A stretch of DNA of 64,000 nt, from NCBI GenBank assembly GCA_001281695.1, contig LJIE01000001.1, positions 1,378,586 through 1,442,585 of the forward strand. Reading direction: 5' to 3'. Position numbers and translations under genes: made by a program. The notes under the pieces were generated by a model that did no database searches, was not told where the DNA came from, and worked only from the letters and a program-made list of their open reading frames with translations. The stretch comes from a bacterium 336/3. GTDB lineage: Bacteria; Bacteroidota; Bacteroidia; Cytophagales; Thermonemataceae. Shown piece by piece: positions 13,736 through 24,027 of the stretch (the stretch's first letter is position 1; every line of letters starts with the position of its first letter).

Positions 13736-15838
13736 ATGAATCAAAAGTGCTTATTAATTTACCTTTTCGTTTGTTGCATTACCTTTGTTAATGCTCAAAA
13801 TACCAAATTAGATTCACTTTTAGATGTTTTAAAAACATCTAAAGAAGACACCAATCAAGTGAAGGTGCTTTATCGTATTTCAGATATTTTTAGAGGCAAA
13901 TCTCAAAACGAAAGAGCTCTTGAATACACCAAAAAATCATTAGAGCTTTCTAAAAAGCTTCGTTTTGAAAAATTTGAGGCTAATAATTATGGGATTTTGG
14001 GTATTATTTATACAAATTTAGGGAATTATCAAGAAGCATTAACATACCACAAAAAAAGTCTGTTCATCAAAGCAAAAATCACAGACAAACAAGGTGTTGG
14101 TAATTCTTACAATAACATAGGTGATGTGTATTATCAATTGGGAAATTATGCAGAAGCACTAGTTTATCATTTTAAAGCCTTAAAAATAAGGGAAGAATTA
14201 GGTAATAAAATAAGCATTGCTAACTCATATAATAATATTGGTAGCACTTATAATCTCCAAAAAAACTATGAAGAAAGCCTAAAATATCATTTTTTGAGTT
14301 TAAAAATAATGGAAGAACTCAAAGAAAAAGCAAGTATTGCAAGGTCTTATAACAATATTGCCATCAATTATAATGCACTCAAAAAACACCAAGAAGCACT
14401 TATTTATCAACAAAAAGCCATTTTATTGCAAGAAGAAACAAATAATAAAAAAGGACGTGGTATTACATTAGGCAACATAGGAAGTACTTATCATTATTTA
14501 GAAAACTATGAAAAAGCGAATGAATATTATGAGAAAAGCTTAAAACTACGTGAAGAAATCAAAGATAAATATGGCATAGCAGTAATGTGGCGTAATATTG
14601 CAAATGTTTGTATAAAACAAAAAAAATACAAAGAAGCAAAAGCGTATTTGGATAAAAGTATGGTTTTTAGCAAAGAGATGAATAGTTTAGAAGACTTTAA
14701 ACATACCTATTTTATATATTCTACACTTTATAAAGAAGAAAGTAATTATGAAGCATCTTTGGATAATTATAAAAAGTATATTGTGTATAGAGATAGTATT
14801 TTTAATGTAGAAAACGACAAAAAAAGTATGAAGGCACAAATTCAATATGAATTTGAAAAGCAACAAGCCATCACAGAGGCTCAATACGAAAAACAACAAG
14901 CTATCAAACAAGCAGAATTTGAAAAACAAAATATATTAAATCACTCAAAATTAGAGCAACAGCAATATATTTTAGAAAAGCAACAACAATCATATTTGAT
15001 TTTGGAACAGGCAGATAAATTGAAATCTTTAAATCTTACAAAATCCAACTTAGAGCTTAAACAAAGTCAGACCGAAAAAGAAAAAATGCAATTATCTGCT
15101 AAAAAAGATGCTGAACAAAGCAGACTTATCATTATTTTTGTAAGTAGTATAGCCTTTTTGATGTTTCTTATTCTATTTGTGATTATACAAAGTTTAATTA
15201 CAAACAAAAAGAAGAATGCAATCATTGCCCAAAATCTTATTGAAAAAGAAACATTATTAAAAGAAATACACCACAGAGTTAAAAATAACTTACAAATTAT
15301 TTCCAGCTTATTAAATTTACAAAGTCGTTATATTGATGATTCCAAAGCTATTGAAGCTATCAATGAAAGTAAAGAAAGAATAAATGCTATATCTTTATTG
15401 CATAAAGAAATTTATCAAACTGAAGCATTGAGTATTGTAAATGCAAATACTTACTTTACTAATCTTTCTAAAAACCTTCAAAATACATTTGATTCTGATA
15501 ATTCTCGTCAACTTATTTTAAAAATTGAAGAACTATATTTAGATATTGATGTTCTAATTCCACTTGGTTTGATAGCCAATGAATTGGTAACAAACGCTTT
15601 TAAATATGGTATAAATCATAACAATAGTATCATCGAATTTATGCTTGAAACAATAGATAATCAAGTTTCTCTAACCATAAAAGATAATGGACAGGGATTT
15701 CCCAATAATTTTGAACCATCAAAACAAAATTCTCTTGGAGTAAAACTAATATCATTGTTTGCAAAAAAACTAAATGCAAGTGTTGAATACTTTAATAATA
15801 GTGGTGCTTGTGTACAATTGAAGTTTATAAAAATATGA
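13736..15838 (+). CDS. TPR-repeat sensor histidine kinase (HisKA_2 type)
   Basis: 700 residues. Signal peptide-like start ending in FVNAQ; then about seven tetratricopeptide repeats (~residues 45-345, recurring SYNNIGxxYxxLxNYxEAL); a long coiled coil (360-460) with the repeated unit EKQQAI; a single membrane helix (464-487); then the HisKA_2 dimerisation segment [11 protein letters not shown] (510-520, phosphoacceptor His512/His513); and an HATPase_c domain with N-box [12 protein letters not shown] (614-625) and G-box DNGQGF (650-655). The TPRs are thus outside the cytoplasm and the kinase inside. Its stop overlaps the start of the response regulator as ATGA, so the two form a two-component pair. 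The signal sensed is unknown. Confidence 0.93.
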
Positions 15839-16527: not shown

Positions 16528-17703
16528 ATGAAAAGAAGTATTTATTTCAGCATTTTCCTTGTCTTAATAACATCGAAAATATACGCACAAGATTGGCAAA
16601 CCTACGACTTTTCGGCGGATGGAGTTGGAGCTAAAGTGAATTTTCCTGCTCCACCCACCAAAACTGTGGCTCAAAACGGAAATGTAACCAATTATACTTA
16701 TAGAAGTACTGTAGGTACAGATGTTTATATGCTTGTGGCAAGTACTTCTACGGGAGTTTTTCCGAAAGGAAATGCAAAACAATCTTTTGAAAATTCTTCT
16801 AAAAATCTGAAAAAAATACAAAAACAAGAAGCCTTTTCTTATCAGAAGTATGAGGCTTACAAAGCTCAAGCAGAAATGAACAATGGTAATTTTATGAACG
16901 CTCAGTATGTAGCTCATTCAAAGATAAATATCCAAATGTTGATTATTTCAAAGACAAATACTTTTGCCAATAGTGATAAGTTTTTTGGTAGTTTATTGAT
17001 TACAGCTTTACCTGCTGATGAAACAGGTGTAAAAGCCTCTTATGCAGTGGGTGATAGAGTAGAAGTTTTCTATAAAGACCCAGTACGTGGCGACTCTTGG
17101 CTTCCTGCTATTATTCTTAAAGTACAAACGGACGGAAAATATTTTGTGAATTATGATGCTTATGCAGAAACGTATGATGAAGCTGTAGAAGCCAAAAATG
17201 TACGCCCTATGAATCTAAATATCCAAGGGAAAGTTCAATATGTTCCAGCTAAAAGAGGACAAGTATTATCTGTAAATGGTAATCTTTCAAAAGGTAGTAT
17301 TATGGAAGACTTGGAGTGGGCAGAAAGTAGTGCCAATGCGTGTTGGGTGGGTATCAGAAATGTAGAATTTCAAGGTAATCATGTTTTTTATTGGTTTGAT
17401 TTGCCCAAAAAGTCAACTGTAAAAATCACAGTTGTGCCCAAAGGAAACAAGCCAAGAGTAAATGTATATGGTTTTATAAGTTTTGATTTCAAATTTATTC
17501 CTCCCGATTTACCTCGCTGTATCAGTTGTGAAGCAGGTTTTCAGCAATGGGTTGCTAACAATCCTCCAGATTTTACCAAAAGTGCAGGAGAACAGAGCAT
17601 TGAATTTAATGCAATTAGCTCAAGAATGAAAGTTTTTGTAGGTGTGGCAGGTGCAAAAGGCTTCACATCAGGAGATTACGAATTAAAAATTGAAATAAAA
17701 TAA
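16528..17703 (+). CDS. Secreted protein with Tudor/Agenet-like module
   Basis: 391 residues with a signal peptide ending in KIYAQ. Three parts: residues 21-165 form a domain shared with the next gene (both begin W-Q-[ST]-Y-[DN]-F-S-x-D-G, then FPxxPTK); residues 172-228 (YAVGDRVEVFYKDP, WLPAIILKVQ, KYFVNYDAYAETYDEAV) look like a Tudor/Agenet SH3-type barrel; and the last ~150 residues are a beta-rich domain with a CISC pair. Tudor/Agenet folds are known mainly as intracellular methyl-ligand or nucleic-acid readers, so an exported copy is odd. It opens a long same-strand run of genes that contains a pLGIC. Function unknown. Confidence 0.75.
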   Translation: MKRSIYFSIFLVLITSKIYAQDWQTYDFSADGVGAKVNFPAPPTKTVAQNGNVTNYTYRSTVGTDVYMLVASTSTGVFPKGNAKQSFENSSKNLKKIQKQEAFSYQKYEAYKAQAEMNNGNFMNAQYVAHSKINIQMLIISKTNTFANSDKFFGSLLITALPADETGVKASYAVGDRVEVFYKDPVRGDSWLPAIILKVQTDGKYFVNYDAYAETYDEAVEAKNVRPMNLNIQGKVQYVPAKRGQVLSVNGNLSKGSIMEDLEWAESSANACWVGIRNVEFQGNHVFYWFDLPKKSTVKITVVPKGNKPRVNVYGFISFDFKFIPPDLPRCISCEAGFQQWVANNPPDFTKSAGEQSIEFNAISSRMKVFVGVAGAKGFTSGDYELKIEIK

Positions 17704-17722
17704 TGTCTAAAGCTCTAAAAAT

Positions 17723-18208
17723 ATGAAAAATAAAATATTGATTATCAGTGTATTGTTTTTGTTTGTGGCAACGATGAATGTGTTTTCTCAAACATGGCAG
17801 AGTTACAATTTTTCGACAGATGGATTGCCTTTGTCAATCAGTTTCCCCAAACAACCCACCAAGAAAATAACAGAGAAAACAACAAAAAACTACAATTACA
17901 CAAGTGTTCAAGATGGTGTTATTTATGTAGCACAAGCAACACAAGCTAAGAAAAATCTACCTTTTAGTGTAGTAGAAAAATCTCTAACAAAAATTACAAC
18001 TAAGGCAAAAGAAGTTCAGAGTCAAGGAGATTATACCCTTAATGGTTACAAAGGCAAACAAGCTCGTTATCAAACACCTAAAGGAGTTTATACAGAACTT
18101 CGTTTGGTAGTGGTGGATAATGTAGTGTATCAGTTAATGGTGCTTTCTGAAACAGCATATCCACAAAATGCAGAAGAATTTTTCAAAACAGCAAATTTTG
18201 GAAAATAA
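17723..18208 (+). CDS. Secreted hypothetical protein, paralogue of the N-terminal domain of the preceding gene
   Basis: 161 residues with a signal peptide ending in VFSQ. The mature sequence starts TWQSYNFSTDGLPLSISFPKQPTK, matching the first domain of the upstream protein in order and spacing, then continues with a similar alternating strand pattern (YVAQATQAKK, GYKGKQARYQTP, LVVVDNVVYQLMVLSE). It lacks the Tudor-like and C-terminal modules. The gap to the upstream gene is 19 bp, so a shared transcript is likely. I read it as a domain duplication; the function is unknown. Confidence 0.75.
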   Translation: MKNKILIISVLFLFVATMNVFSQTWQSYNFSTDGLPLSISFPKQPTKKITEKTTKNYNYTSVQDGVIYVAQATQAKKNLPFSVVEKSLTKITTKAKEVQSQGDYTLNGYKGKQARYQTPKGVYTELRLVVVDNVVYQLMVLSETAYPQNAEEFFKTANFGK

Positions 18209-18219
18209 ATTATAACGAT

Positions 18220-18744
18220 ATGAACAAACTAAAAATTGAGGGTTTTCTTTCTGTAAAAGAAAGCCCTCAACAAATAATCCTTAGACGTAAGTACAGGGGT
18301 TTTTTGTGGTACGTCATTCCAATGCTTTTGGGAGGTTTTTTATGTGGAGTCCTTTTTGTATCTGAATATTTTTTCTATGCATCTATTGCATTCCTTGTTT
18401 TCTATATAGGTCTGCGTGGTGTTTTCAATGTGATTACTATCACCATCAATCAAGAGTTTTTTCATGCCAAGCATGGTATTTTTCCAATGATTTGGAGTGA
18501 TGATAAGTTTGCTATGAAAGATTTTGATAGCGTTTTTCTTGAAAAAACATATTCAAAAACAGGTAATCGTAAATACAGCCAACAAAAAGGTTTTTTCGAT
18601 GAAAAAACACAGGATGGTTATGATTTTATGGTGTATTTAAAAGATGGAAGCCGAAAAAATATACTTTCTTTTGGTGTAGGAGCAGTTGGGGCTGATTTTT
18701 TAAAACAGAAAACAGAGGAATTTGCTTCAAAAACACAACTTTAA
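18220..18744 (+). CDS. Two-helix membrane protein with PH-like cytoplasmic part, hypothetical
   Basis: 174 residues, no signal peptide. A short N-terminal segment (NKLKIEGFLSVKESPQQIILRRKYRG) is followed by two adjacent hydrophobic helices (about 28-65), and then by a strand-rich soluble part with ITINQEFFHAKHGIF and SVFLEKTYSKTG, in the layout of bacterial PH-like membrane proteins. It is 11 bp downstream of the previous gene and 10 bp upstream of the ion-channel gene, so it likely belongs to the same transcript. Family not recognised. Confidence 0.65.
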   Translation: MNKLKIEGFLSVKESPQQIILRRKYRGFLWYVIPMLLGGFLCGVLFVSEYFFYASIAFLVFYIGLRGVFNVITITINQEFFHAKHGIFPMIWSDDKFAMKDFDSVFLEKTYSKTGNRKYSQQKGFFDEKTQDGYDFMVYLKDGSRKNILSFGVGAVGADFLKQKTEEFASKTQL

Positions 18745-18754
18745 AACGAAAATC

Positions 18755-19690
18755 ATGAAAAAATATTTTATTATAATATGCTTGCTGATGATTTTGGGAA
18801 GCAAATGTGTTGCTCAAGATACTTGCAAAGTAGGTATCTTTATAACAGATATTTATGATTTGAACTTAGCTGAAAAATCGTTCAACGCCAAATTTTGGCT
18901 TTGGGGTTTGTACCAAAAAGATAGTCTCAAAATTCTTGAAAATTTAGAACTCATCGAAGCCAAAGAACACGAATATCTTTTGCCTACGATTGAAAAGCGT
19001 GAAAAGTTGAACTATGCAGCCCAAAAAGCAAAAGCTACACTTAAAAAAGATTGGAATATTACTGATTTCCCTTTTGACGAACAAAAGCTAAATATTATTA
19101 TAGAAAGTGGAGACGCAGAAACTAACGAACTCATTTTTATCCCTGATATAAAAAATAGTAGTTACGACAGCTCCAATATCAAGATTGAAGGCTGGAAAAT
19201 AGATGAATTTAAGGTAATAACAAAAACAAGAACTTACAATAGCAATTATGGTGACCCTGAGATCAAAGGTAAAGCCTCATATAGCAATTTTATAACTTCT
19301 ATTACACTCAAAAGGGATAGTGGAGGGCTATTTTTTAAATTGTTTACAGGTTTGTATGTGGCATTTGTTATTTCTCTTTTGCCTTATTTTATGGGTCCTG
19401 AGAATGCAGAAAGATTTGGGTTGCTGGTAGGTTCGTTATTTGCCGCAGTAGCAAATAAATATGTGGTGGATTCTATTTTGCCCGAAACGAATAATTATAC
19501 TTTGGTAGATAAAATTCATGTGATTACATTCATTTATATCTTAATTAGTCTTATTATGACTGTCATAGCTTATAGACTTTTTGCTTCTGAGAGAAACCCA
19601 TTGGCAAAGAAAGTAGATAAATGGGCTTTTGTGGTTACAATTATATCTTTTATTCTGATAAACTTTTATTTAATTTGGCAGGCAATGTAA
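18755..19690 (+). CDS. Prokaryotic pentameric ligand-gated ion channel (Cys-loop receptor superfamily) homologue
   Basis: 311 residues from ATG at 18755. A signal peptide (1-20, ending VAQ) leads into an extracytoplasmic domain (~21-190) with VGIFITDIYDLN and FNAKFWLW, the expected beta1/beta2 pattern, and the superfamily hallmark FPFDEQ at 105-110 without the loop cysteines, as in known bacterial channels. Four helices follow: M1 ~193-212, M2 ~220-240 starting AERFGLLVGSLFAAV, then the LPETNNYTLVDKIHVITF link into M3 (~253-275), and M4 ~288-308. Length and topology match bacterial pLGICs such as GLIC and ELIC. It should form a ligand-gated pore in the inner membrane with a periplasmic sensor; ligand and ion selectivity are unknown. 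Confidence 0.85.
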   Translation: MKKYFIIICLLMILGSKCVAQDTCKVGIFITDIYDLNLAEKSFNAKFWLWGLYQKDSLKILENLELIEAKEHEYLLPTIEKREKLNYAAQKAKATLKKDWNITDFPFDEQKLNIIIESGDAETNELIFIPDIKNSSYDSSNIKIEGWKIDEFKVITKTRTYNSNYGDPEIKGKASYSNFITSITLKRDSGGLFFKLFTGLYVAFVISLLPYFMGPENAERFGLLVGSLFAAVANKYVVDSILPETNNYTLVDKIHVITFIYILISLIMTVIAYRLFASERNPLAKKVDKWAFVVTIISFILINFYLIWQAM

Positions 19691-19738: not shown

Positions 19739-20794
19739 ATGGAAAATAAAAAACACACTCAAGAGGAACTCAATGAAATTCTCAAATTGGCTTTTGAGCG
19801 AGAAAACAATATTCAATTGGAAAATGATTTGAAAGAGTCAGCCAAGGAATTGGGTATCAGTGAAGAAGAATTTAAGACTGCACAAGAGCTTTACTACATT
19901 GATAAAAAAATTGCTGAACGTGAAGTTTTCAAAAAACAAGAAAAACGCAAAAAACTCATTATTTGGGCAAGTATTTTAGCAGTTTTATCAATCGTTATCA
20001 TTTACTTTTCCCTTCCTCGTGGGGCATATCAAGGTAAATTTGAAGTATATCTGACTACCAACGAGAAAAACTTTTTGTATTATGGTGGTACAGAAAATAT
20101 ACAAGAATTTTATGCTTTAGAAAACAAAAGTTTGACTTGTCAATTACAGCTTTTAGAGCCTCAATATAGGACTTATAAAATTGATTATAAGTTGTTTACA
20201 CCAAAAGGTAAATTGCATGAAGAAAGAAATAATGTTGCTTATCGCTATGATAAGAAGGATTTGAATTTTGCTATCAGCAGTTTTGGATTCTATGGCTTTG
20301 AAATTAAATCTGAAAATTTAGGTGACTGGAGAGTAGAAGTTTGGGTTGATAAAAAGCTATTGCATACGCAAAAAATTTCTTTCAAACTGGCTAATCCTCA
20401 TCTAAGTATAGGATTGTTACCTCTTTTGGAATGGGATAAAAAAAATCCTCCCATTATTAAAAATCAATTTAGCCTAAGTCAAGATTTTACTAACAAAAGT
20501 TATAGACTCACTGCTAAAGCTGAGTTTTTACTGCGTCAAACAGGGATATTTACTTTGGAATGTACCAACCCTGAAGGTAAAATAATTGCATCTAAAGAAC
20601 ACAGACTTCATGAAAGAAGTGGCTATCGAGCAGAATACAACAATAATTTTATCATTGACATAGATTTACATTCTCTTTTGGAAAAAAATACAACCTTGGG
20701 TAAGTATAAATTGAGTGTCTATGGTCAAGATTTTGGAAAAGCTGAAGACCAACGTATCAAAATAGAAGAATATGCTTTTGAAATTACAAAATAG
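19739..20794 (+). CDS. Single-pass membrane protein with coiled N-terminus and large extracytoplasmic domain
   Basis: 351 residues from ATG at 19739 (a TTG three codons earlier is possible). Residues 1-65 are charged and helical (TQEELNEILKLAFERE, ELGISEEEFKTAQELYYIDKK); a membrane helix follows at ~70-90; the remaining ~255 residues are strand-rich and soluble, presumably periplasmic. It follows the pLGIC by 48 bp. A cytoplasmic helical module linked through the membrane to a periplasmic beta domain suggests a sensor or adaptor, but no family is recognised. Confidence 0.6.
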   Translation: MENKKHTQEELNEILKLAFERENNIQLENDLKESAKELGISEEEFKTAQELYYIDKKIAEREVFKKQEKRKKLIIWASILAVLSIVIIYFSLPRGAYQGKFEVYLTTNEKNFLYYGGTENIQEFYALENKSLTCQLQLLEPQYRTYKIDYKLFTPKGKLHEERNNVAYRYDKKDLNFAISSFGFYGFEIKSENLGDWRVEVWVDKKLLHTQKISFKLANPHLSIGLLPLLEWDKKNPPIIKNQFSLSQDFTNKSYRLTAKAEFLLRQTGIFTLECTNPEGKIIASKEHRLHERSGYRAEYNNNFIIDIDLHSLLEKNTTLGKYKLSVYGQDFGKAEDQRIKIEEYAFEITK

Positions 20795-21869: not shown

Positions 21870-22145
21870 ATGCGATACCTCATTGTTGTGTTTTGCTTTG
21901 TTTTTGCCTTGACTGTGCAATATTTTTTATCAATTTTATTGATAAAACTTGGTTATTTCCATAATCACCTACACACATTTGGTGGTTTTTTACTGATTAT
22001 GATGATTTATGCGAAATTAGTCAATTTTGTATTAGATTCTTTGAAGGTAAAATTGAATTACCAAGAAGCTATAATATTCAAATACAGTATATTAGTTTTG
22101 TTGATAGCTTCTTTTTTCCTCAACTATAAAATGATGCTCCCATGA
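21870..22145 (+). CDS. Small membrane protein, 91 aa, hypothetical
   Basis: Three hydrophobic segments make up most of the 91 residues (MRYLIVVFCFVFALTVQYF, GGFLLIMMIYAKLVNFVL, SILVLLIASFFLNYKM). The arrangement recalls the membrane half of the 212-aa protein two genes upstream (both carry a first helix, an HTFGGF/YPMGGF-like glycine turn, a second helix and a late third helix), so it may be a shortened paralogue lacking the soluble domain. Its stop overlaps the next ATG (ATGA), which indicates translational coupling. Confidence 0.5.
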   Translation: MRYLIVVFCFVFALTVQYFLSILLIKLGYFHNHLHTFGGFLLIMMIYAKLVNFVLDSLKVKLNYQEAIIFKYSILVLLIASFFLNYKMMLP

Positions 22146-23257
22146 TTTTAGAAGCAGCTATCAAAGAATTAGGCAATGATTTATACGAGATTAGTGTTCC
22201 TTTTGCTCCTGATACCTTGTTTCAGATGATAGAATATTTGCCTGTAGGTGAAGTTGTAGGGAGCAAAGAGGAGATAGTAAGTTTTGTAACAGAATCTCAA
22301 ATGTTGGGGATTTCTGTAGATTTTACTTGTAAAATAGTAGAAATTAATCAGCTTTTTATAGATAGTTTGCGAGCAACATGGGGTTTTTCTTCGCCAACAG
22401 ATTGGATTTGCAGAGTTCAAAAAGTAGGTTATGAAGAAAATCAATTTTCTTATTTTGGCGAACACAAACAATATGACGAATTACCACCAACCATTTTCCC
22501 AAATACTTGGCTCAAATACATCAAACCATATTCATCTGAATTAGGTTTTTTTGATAAATATTTGCCTTTGGAGTATTACATAAGAAATTTTAAAGTTTTA
22601 GGTGAAAATATCAAAAGAAAGGAAAGGATTTGCAGTTTTGAATACTGCCCCAATTATACTGGTTTGGGTGAAGAAAAATGGGGTTTTATAGAAAAAAATA
22701 AGAAAACTGCTTATCTGTATGCTCCTTACGATCTTGAAAAGATAAGTTTTAATGAAAAATTATTATTAGAAGCTCAATACAATCCACAGCCTAACAGTTG
22801 GATCTTGATGAATATCAAAAAGGATTTTATTTTAAAAGTAGAAAGAAAAGTAAATTATTATAGAGATTATTTTTGTTGGTATAAACCAGAAGGAGATTTG
22901 ATACGCATAGGTTTAGATACAAAAGGTGATGAATATATACAAATTCATCAACCTATTTATCCTATACGTTGTGCGGAAGTCGGCAAGATTTTTAAGGTTA
23001 AAGATATTGCTACGAGTGAATATATTTTTGAAATTGATTTAAATGGACCTATGGGAAGATGGTTTACTGCAGAATTTGATATGGAAATAGTAGAAATAAA
23101 CCCAATAATTTGGAATGATTTACAACTTAATAACGCTTGTGAAATTTTGATAAAAGATTCTTATAATAAAGGTTGGATAATGTTAGTAAAACCACTCAAC
23201 CCCGAAAAAACAAAGAAAATGTTTGCAGAATGGTATGAAATGGGACGATTTGATTAA
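22142..23257 (+). CDS. Hypothetical protein with internal duplication; long member of a paralogous pair
   Basis: 371 residues, soluble, no signal peptide, starting in an ATGA overlap with the upstream gene. The N-terminus carries KELGNDLYEIS and LPVGEVVG; a segment DFTCKIVEINQLFIDSL (60-76) recurs in diverged form as EFDMEIVEINPIIWNDL (311-327), so the two ends of the protein look like copies of one domain. The middle has NWxx/aromatic-rich motifs (LPLEYYIRNFKVL, ICSFEYCP, YLYAPYDLEK). The next gene is a clear paralogue lacking the C-terminal part. Family not recognised. Confidence 0.65.
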   Translation: MILEAAIKELGNDLYEISVPFAPDTLFQMIEYLPVGEVVGSKEEIVSFVTESQMLGISVDFTCKIVEINQLFIDSLRATWGFSSPTDWICRVQKVGYEENQFSYFGEHKQYDELPPTIFPNTWLKYIKPYSSELGFFDKYLPLEYYIRNFKVLGENIKRKERICSFEYCPNYTGLGEEKWGFIEKNKKTAYLYAPYDLEKISFNEKLLLEAQYNPQPNSWILMNIKKDFILKVERKVNYYRDYFCWYKPEGDLIRIGLDTKGDEYIQIHQPIYPIRCAEVGKIFKVKDIATSEYIFEIDLNGPMGRWFTAEFDMEIVEINPIIWNDLQLNNACEILIKDSYNKGWIMLVKPLNPEKTKKMFAEWYEMGRFD

Positions 23258-23265
23258 GTATAAAT

Positions 23266-24027
23266 ATGGAATATTATCATAACCAAACCAATATCAGAGA
23301 ATTAGGCAATGATTTGTATGAAATTAGTTGCTGTCCTGTCCATTGTTTTATGTTTGGGATTGATGAACACTTGCCTGTTGGCAGAGTGGTGGGTGTAGGA
23401 GAGCCTATGGCACATTGGAGTACAGAAAACCAACTTTTAAACCTTGAGACAGATTTTACTTGTAAAATAGTAGAAATCAATCAGCCTCTTATAGATTATT
23501 TTCGAGAAACTAATGATGGACATTTGAAGGATTTGACAACTAATGGATTTTCACCAACAGATTGGGTTTATGTGGTGCAAAAGATGGATGAGAATGAAAA
23601 TACAAATCCATATTTTCGTCCTCATAAAAGTTACTCTTACAATATTAAGATTTTACCTTGTTGGAGTAAGCCTATAGATATTTATACGCTTGAATTAGGT
23701 TATTTTAATTATTTTTTACCTTTGGAATATTACATACGCAATATTGTGATTTTAAATGAAAACTGTAAGGAAGGTGAAAAAATATGCAGTTTTGAATACT
23801 ATCCTATTGGTTATCAAAATATAAAAAAATCAGAAAGGTGGGAATATGCCAATAAATACAAGAAAATAGAATACTTGTATGCACCCTGCGACTTAGAAAA
23901 AGTGATAGACTATAACCCTATTTTTAACCCTATGTTGCATGAACAACCAATCCACAACGGTTGGATTTTGATAAATATCAAAGATGATTATATTTTGAAA
24001 GTAAAAAAGGAAAGGTCTGTAGAATAG
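23266..24027 (+). CDS. Hypothetical protein, C-terminally shortened paralogue of the preceding gene
   Basis: 253 residues that align end to end with the first ~240 residues of the upstream protein: RELGNDLYEIS, LPVGRVVG, DFTCKIVEINQ, SPTDWVYVVQK, LPLEYYIRNIVIL, ICSFEYYP, YLYAPCDLEK and NGWILINIKDDYILKV all have counterparts in the same order. It stops where the relative continues for another ~110 residues. The gap is 8 bp, so this is a tandem duplicate in one transcript. The shortening may be loss of a domain or an ancestral single-domain state. Confidence 0.65.
   Translation: MEYYHNQTNIRELGNDLYEISCCPVHCFMFGIDEHLPVGRVVGVGEPMAHWSTENQLLNLETDFTCKIVEINQPLIDYFRETNDGHLKDLTTNGFSPTDWVYVVQKMDENENTNPYFRPHKSYSYNIKILPCWSKPIDIYTLELGYFNYFLPLEYYIRNIVILNENCKEGEKICSFEYYPIGYQNIKKSERWEYANKYKKIEYLYAPCDLEKVIDYNPIFNPMLHEQPIHNGWILINIKDDYILKVKKERSVE

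Follow-up and report, generated by a model that had tools for sequence, protein, structure and literature searches.

A probable bacterial pentameric ligand-gated ion channel subunit from a member of the Cytophagales, and the sporadic subfamily around it

The gene at positions 18755-19690 of the window (by which we mean the whole stretch of 64,000 nucleotides analysed, from bacterium 336/3) very probably encodes a subunit of a bacterial pentameric ligand-gated ion channel (pLGIC), to judge from its sequence and modelled fold. The bacterial pLGICs are relatives of the nicotinic, GABA and glycine receptors, which are channels for nerve signals, and two of them serve here as points of reference: GLIC, the proton-gated channel of Gloeobacter violaceus (PDB 3eam/4hfi family), and ELIC, an amine-gated cation channel from Dickeya/Erwinia. 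Taken singly, the gene is an unremarkable addition to a superfamily already known; the interest lies in its subfamily, which joins a pocket signature without loop A to an unusual pore and is found in three phyla. We tentatively propose that this is a distinct and mostly unannotated group (in Bacteroidota, Azospirillum and Streptomyces) with a ligand pocket that lacks the loop-A WxP motif, a pore that in Bacteroidota is unlike those of the solved members, and one common small metabolite sensed across phyla.

On translation, 18755-19690 (+) is a stop-free frame of 311 aa. The mechanical open reading frame call begins at a TTG at 18722, which would add 11 residues, and the ATG at 18755 opens straight into the signal peptide (MKKYFIIICLLMILGSKCVAQ). 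The first mature residue, D22, is invariant in the 78 homologues that were aligned. The parts of the gene are as follows.

18755..19690, + strand: pLGIC subunit gene, signal peptide included (translation, NCBIfam, PDB search, AlphaFold, Foldseek)
18755..18817, + strand: signal peptide, residues 1-21, cleavage at about VAQ/D, without a lipobox (sequence; helix 2-14 in the model)
18818..19315, + strand: extracytoplasmic beta-sandwich domain, residues 22-187, 166 aa (model strands E22-37 to E174-187; partial Neur_chan_LBD match, 100-188)
18896..18904, + strand: loop D, W48-L-W50 on beta2, W48 corresponding to ELIC Tyr38 (alignment; both Trp invariant in 78 homologues)
18941..18949, + strand: residues 63-65, site of about 20 absent residues (beta3/beta4 of GLIC plus the loop-A WIPE) (alignments; position 65 acidic in 78/78)
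19067..19084, + strand: FPFDEQ Pro-loop (beta6-beta7), residues 105-110 (sequence, superfamily hallmarks)
19103..19105, + strand: loop B E117, equivalent of ELIC Glu131 (alignment; invariant in 78 homologues)
19235..19282, + strand: loop C, Y161-x-[TS]-x-[FY]-G-D ... Y176 (Y161 and G166 invariant; 176 Tyr or Phe in 78/78)
19313..19315, + strand: pre-M1 arginine R187, expected partner of the Pro-loop Asp (hallmark mapping)
19319..19393, + strand: M1, about residues 189-213, with Gly199 at the usual proline-kink position (AlphaFold model, in which the helix spans 189-208; hallmark mapping)
19412..19477, + strand: M2 pore helix, 220-241 (R0', G2', G6', F9', A13', K15', Y16', D19'), with E219 immediately before it (AlphaFold model, alignment)
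19502..19585, + strand: M3 helix, 250-277 (AlphaFold model)
19595..19684, + strand: M4 helix, 281-310 (AlphaFold model)

An earlier note on this DNA had read the product as a bacterial pLGIC homologue of the Cys-less kind, and profile matches, fold and hallmark residues all bear out that core claim. Its landmarks were for the most part well placed: a signal peptide, an extracytoplasmic domain of ~170 residues (166 aa as delimited here), FPFDEQ at 105-110, the stretch LPETNNYTLVDK running into M3 (residues 242-253 of the 311-aa protein) and a fourth helix, which AlphaFold likewise predicts. AERFGLLVG, which it took for the link between M1 and M2, is rather the start of M2 itself (residues 218-226, -2' to 6').

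Superfamily membership is secure, since profile matches, the predicted fold and seven hallmark positions agree. Among NCBIfam models, LGIC_1 matches at E=1.1e-15 and LIC at 4.7e-9, both below the curated cut-offs. The Pfam search that the earlier note had suggested gave a divided answer: Neur_chan_LBD matched the single sequence over residues 100-188 (20.2 bits, E 4e-4) but fell below its cut-off of 26 bits, and Neur_chan_memb gave no match to the single sequence; across the family, at E<=0.01, the former was found in 74 of 78 members and the latter in 9 of 78. When the protein was compared by phmmer with PDB sequences, the best single-sequence match was DeCLIC, the calcium-sensitive pLGIC of Desulfofustis (6v4a/9ftg), at 4e-10 over residues 97-308, with GLIC at 3e-5, and a profile of the 78 sequences matched GLIC at 4.6e-20 across residues 22-310. 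The AlphaFold model (mean pLDDT 94.8, pTM 0.84) is a beta-sandwich followed by four helices, the architecture that the earlier note had made its structural test. All 50 PDB folds listed by Foldseek are pLGICs, GLIC being the closest among the matches listed (7e-20; TM up to 0.80) and GABA-A subunits giving TM values of 0.76-0.80.

Jaiteh 2016 (PMC4795631) gives seven positions as the best conserved across the superfamily, and they correspond here to F105, P106, D108, W147, R187, G199 and P243, which are conserved in the 78 homologues. The first three fit the Pro-loop pattern [F/Y]PxD (its P and D being invariant), and the beta9 Trp (W147) and the pre-M1 Arg (R187) are also invariant. At the kink of M1, Gly199 (Gly in 77/78) stands in place of Pro, a minority form found in 5% of sequences (Table 1 of PMC4795631); R220 is the basic residue at 0' of M2, and P243 is the proline of the M2-M3 loop. 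The disulphide pair of the animal Cys-loop has no counterpart, as the protein sequence contains no cysteines near FPFDEQ.

A phage or defence origin for the gene was considered and set aside (there was no match in 50,697 phage records, and no PADLOC model). As a separate observation, two viral proteins in BFVD, A0A5J6VL22 (Megaviridae environmental) and A0A7S9SUV3 (Virus NIOZ-UU159), are predicted to have a pLGIC-like fold, and these were the sole strong viral structure matches.

The subfamily is sporadic, sometimes multi-copy, and broad, extending across three phyla. The genome of bacterium 336/3 itself has three copies, the paralogues being 73% and 39% identical to the window protein. In a quick tree, the window protein clusters with the 73% paralogue and with an 81% identical homologue from the Cytophagales, and the third (39%) copy clusters with a protein of Raineya orbicola; we claim no deep phylogeny, because GLIC, ELIC and the fused forms are attached at depth by long branches. 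Matches occur in 27/98 genomes of the order and, at E<=1e-20, in 17/296 genomes of the phylum. A collection of genomes from 84,980 species yielded 301 loci with relatives, and the best 80 of these 301 are labelled as Bacteroidota groups, except for one labelled Chlorobiota. The homologues in Azospirillum and Streptomyces (28-33% identity over 79-98% of the protein) are on plasmids or secondary replicons and, where annotated, are recorded as 'hypothetical protein'. The subfamily appears to be uncharacterised in the open-licence literature searched.

Two kinds of relative deserve mention in their own right. Several genomes of the same order, as at L027:271-2370 and L032:262-2403, encode proteins of ~700 residues in which a long N-terminal extension, of periplasmic-binding type by eye, precedes a pLGIC module whose loop C carries a similar GDP motif; L027 was assigned no Pfam family. 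Fusions to PBP-I domains are reported for alphaproteobacteria by Tasneem et al. (PMC549065). A related group from small genomes of 1.3-1.6 Mb (L025, L026 and L024) has a longer ligand domain and keeps N-R-Y-x-V-D in M2, with the M2-M3 proline absent; L025 had no Pfam match.

The pore helix is highly conserved and rich in glycine: G222 (2'), G226 (6'), F229 (9'), A/G233 (13'), N234, K235 (15'), Y236 (16'), D239 (19') and, beyond it, P243. In the Bacteroidota, 13' is mostly Gly and Lys 15' is invariant; D239 is invariant, and position 219 is Glu or Asp in 74/78 homologues. In known cation-selective pLGICs there are acidic residues at the cytoplasmic mouth of the pore (PMC9897478), and by analogy with these the acid at 219 suggests that the channel is probably cation selective. 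It could be objected that the product is a degenerate, non-conducting binding protein or scaffold, or works only as the heteromeric partner of the two paralogues, and the sporadic occurrence in the order, the three copies in one genome and a Gly-rich M2 unlike those of GLIC and ELIC would all suit such an interpretation. Against this, of the family's 29 invariant positions 12 fall within M2 and the M2-M3 region, a share that argues for selection on the pore, and the frame is intact with its hallmarks kept. We therefore regard a non-channel role as improbable and retain the reading of the product as a channel subunit, a heteromer with the two paralogues being possible.

The ligand domain differs from the classical one in the absence, between residues 63 and 64 in the alignments, of about 20 residues whose GLIC counterpart holds the loop-A WIPE; the Azospirillum and Streptomyces proteins have the same short form, with ~20 residues fewer. 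In ELIC, the agonist pocket consists of Glu131 and Phe133 (loop B), Tyr174 and Phe187 (loop C), Tyr38 (loop D) and Asn103, and the amine of the ligand is near Glu77 and Glu131 (PMC3119659); the loop-C numbering of ELIC is shifted by one between sources. For residue mapping, MAFFT and HHalign alignments were compared and positions at which they disagreed were flagged; the GLIC and ELIC sequences came from PDB alignments as far as these print them, and beyond these stretches only the landmark positions of ELIC, which were checked, are reliable. By mapping from motif anchors, Tyr38 corresponds to W48 and Glu131 to E117, both without gaps and both invariant in the 78 homologues, and Phe187/188 to Y176, which is Tyr or Phe in 78/78. 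Y161, also invariant, is on the same strand as Tyr174/175, displaced by one or two residues according to the anchor, and the pairing depends on the aligner. The acidic residue at position 65 (Glu in Azospirillum and Streptomyces) is paired with Glu77 by some aligners and not by others. Phe133 corresponds to G119 and is not conserved, its place being taken in relatives mostly by Ser or Thr, and also by Ala or Gly. Overall, the positions mapped to contacts exceed the domain average in conservation, if marginally (p about 0.05).

The Streptomyces homologues are instructive here, in that they keep WLW, VE and Y-x-T-x-F-G-D-P (loops D, B and C) and have lost the M2-M3 proline and K15'; retention of the pocket signature while the pore helix diverged suggests that the ligand site is under selection. 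The pocket of the window protein cannot equal the one in ELIC, because Phe133 is not kept and the loop-A segment is absent. The pattern of an acid with aromatics, partly as in ELIC, nevertheless makes a small amine or other cationic metabolite the most likely class of ligand, and we offer this, from sequence comparison, as a tentative hypothesis. Gating of some other kind is a serious contender: the channel might respond to protons (like GLIC), to removal of divalent cations (like DeCLIC) or to a carboxylate or peptide, with the conserved acids and aromatics having a structural role. Such gating would sit well with DeCLIC being the closest PDB sequence and GLIC the closest fold, and with the absence of loop A and of a conserved counterpart of Phe133; on the other hand, the invariance of W48, E117 and Y161 and the retention of the loop-C motif over three phyla are better suited to a ligand pocket.

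The surroundings of the gene might be expected to indicate what it senses, and the earlier note had looked to them for the ligand. Between 16528 and 19690 the genes share a strand and are spaced 10-20 nt apart, which makes cotranscription plausible. The immediate neighbours are these.

18220..18744, + strand: upstream neighbour, coding for a membrane protein of 174 aa and separated from the channel gene by 10 nt (without relatives in 58 related genomes)
19739..20794, + strand: downstream neighbour, 351 aa (no link to channels elsewhere)

That hope was disappointed: when the genes within +/-6 of 77 homologues (the 81% one included) were clustered, none of the window neighbours recurred in place. 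The window and the homologue surroundings share TPR/kinase-type and regulator proteins, which are common and differ in distance and strand from case to case; the other adjacent genes have few and weak relatives in the 58 related genomes, being nearly confined to their own genome, and the paralogues in the same genome lie in different settings. With neighbours that do not recur and have few or no relatives, the neighbourhood names no ligand. It is conceivable that the channel belongs to a signalling cassette in which the sensor kinase at 13736-15838, a regulator, the Agenet protein and the membrane protein at 18220-18744 supply or read its signal, as the single strand and short gaps of 16528 to 19690 would allow. 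We consider such a cassette very unlikely, however, in view of the lack of any fixed place for these genes beside the 77 homologues, the near-absence of the adjacent genes from the 58 related genomes and the other settings of the paralogues.

Elsewhere, recurrent neighbours of the homologues include a gene for a small membrane protein that points away from the channel, a gene for an OmpA/PD40 protein, and CinA-like and D-Tyr-tRNA deacylase-like genes (named by eye from sequence); they look like lineage synteny. Two distant homologues (in Azospirillum sp. B510 and at L037) have solute-binding proteins adjacent or within three genes, an arrangement that is not general and that recalls the PBP-channel operons predicted by Tasneem et al. 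(PMC549065). On the Azospirillum sp. B510 plasmid (L124:558-7315), the subfamily channel is near an SBP_bac_5 peptide-binding protein and a TPR protein, with alanine racemase and an ABC_sub_bind protein downstream; a hint in these surroundings of an amino-acid or peptide ligand is possible.

Some other features of the window may be recorded. The secreted protein encoded at 16528-17703 significantly matches the Agenet domain (E=1.1e-8), which is Tudor-like and known chiefly from eukaryotes; the gene that follows, 17723-18208, repeats the N-terminal part of this protein. Genes 22142-23257 and 23266-24027 are a paralogous pair; towards its C-terminus the first matches the glycine cleavage H-protein above cut-off (E=4.7e-6). 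There was no Rfam match to a non-coding RNA within the window, and promoter and terminator scans gave counts near those of shuffles.

If these strands are drawn together, the product would be one subunit of an inner-membrane homopentamer; its ligand domain would lie in the periplasm, and five copies would assemble around M2. A small molecule would bind between subunits, held by W48/W50 of loop D, E117 of loop B and Y161/Y176 of loop C; the Pro-loop, through a D108-R187 contact, would couple binding to M2; and the bulky rings at 9' and 16' (F229, Y236) would then open and let cations pass, because acidic rings (E219, D239) flank the pore. To our knowledge, little has been learnt of what pLGICs do in bacteria, and a ligand has been identified for only a few of the bacterial members. 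A subfamily of hundreds, with a near-invariant pore and a pocket signature that crosses phyla, offers a manageable set in which to seek a natural bacterial signal, and it also reveals what the classical neurotransmitter pocket can do without. With one pocket loop absent and other pocket residues kept, the trigger is now open to experimental search.

Among described channels, the pLGIC of Cytophaga hutchinsonii comes from the same phylum and, in the available portion of Tasneem et al. (PMC549065), is alike in its signal peptide, ligand domain and four helices; it may belong to the same subfamily, though the likeness is one of domain layout only, and that portion of the source has no description of a missing loop A or an M1 Gly. 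DeCLIC, the best single-sequence match in the PDB, opens on calcium depletion and bears at its N-terminus an additional domain, made up of two jelly-roll lobes (PMC9897478), that is absent from the window protein. ELIC shares the loop-B acid of Glu131 type, an aromatic loop D and loop C, E-R before and at 0' of M2 and an aromatic residue at 16', but identity is 17% (in an alignment whose ELIC sequence is fully reliable at its landmark positions only), Phe133 is replaced by Gly, Ser or Thr, and the loop-A segment is absent; since Phe133 is not kept, we do not file the window protein as ELIC-type and compare the two in mechanism only. GLIC is alike in its whole-length fold, Cys-less Pro-loop, four helices and acid before M2, and in the beta9 Trp, pre-M1 Arg and M2-M3 Pro, whereas at ~14% identity the window protein is without the ~20 residues of beta3 and the loop-A WIPE, and has Gly for Pro in M1, a longer loop C and a pore of its own, marked by G2', G6', F9', K15' and Y16'.
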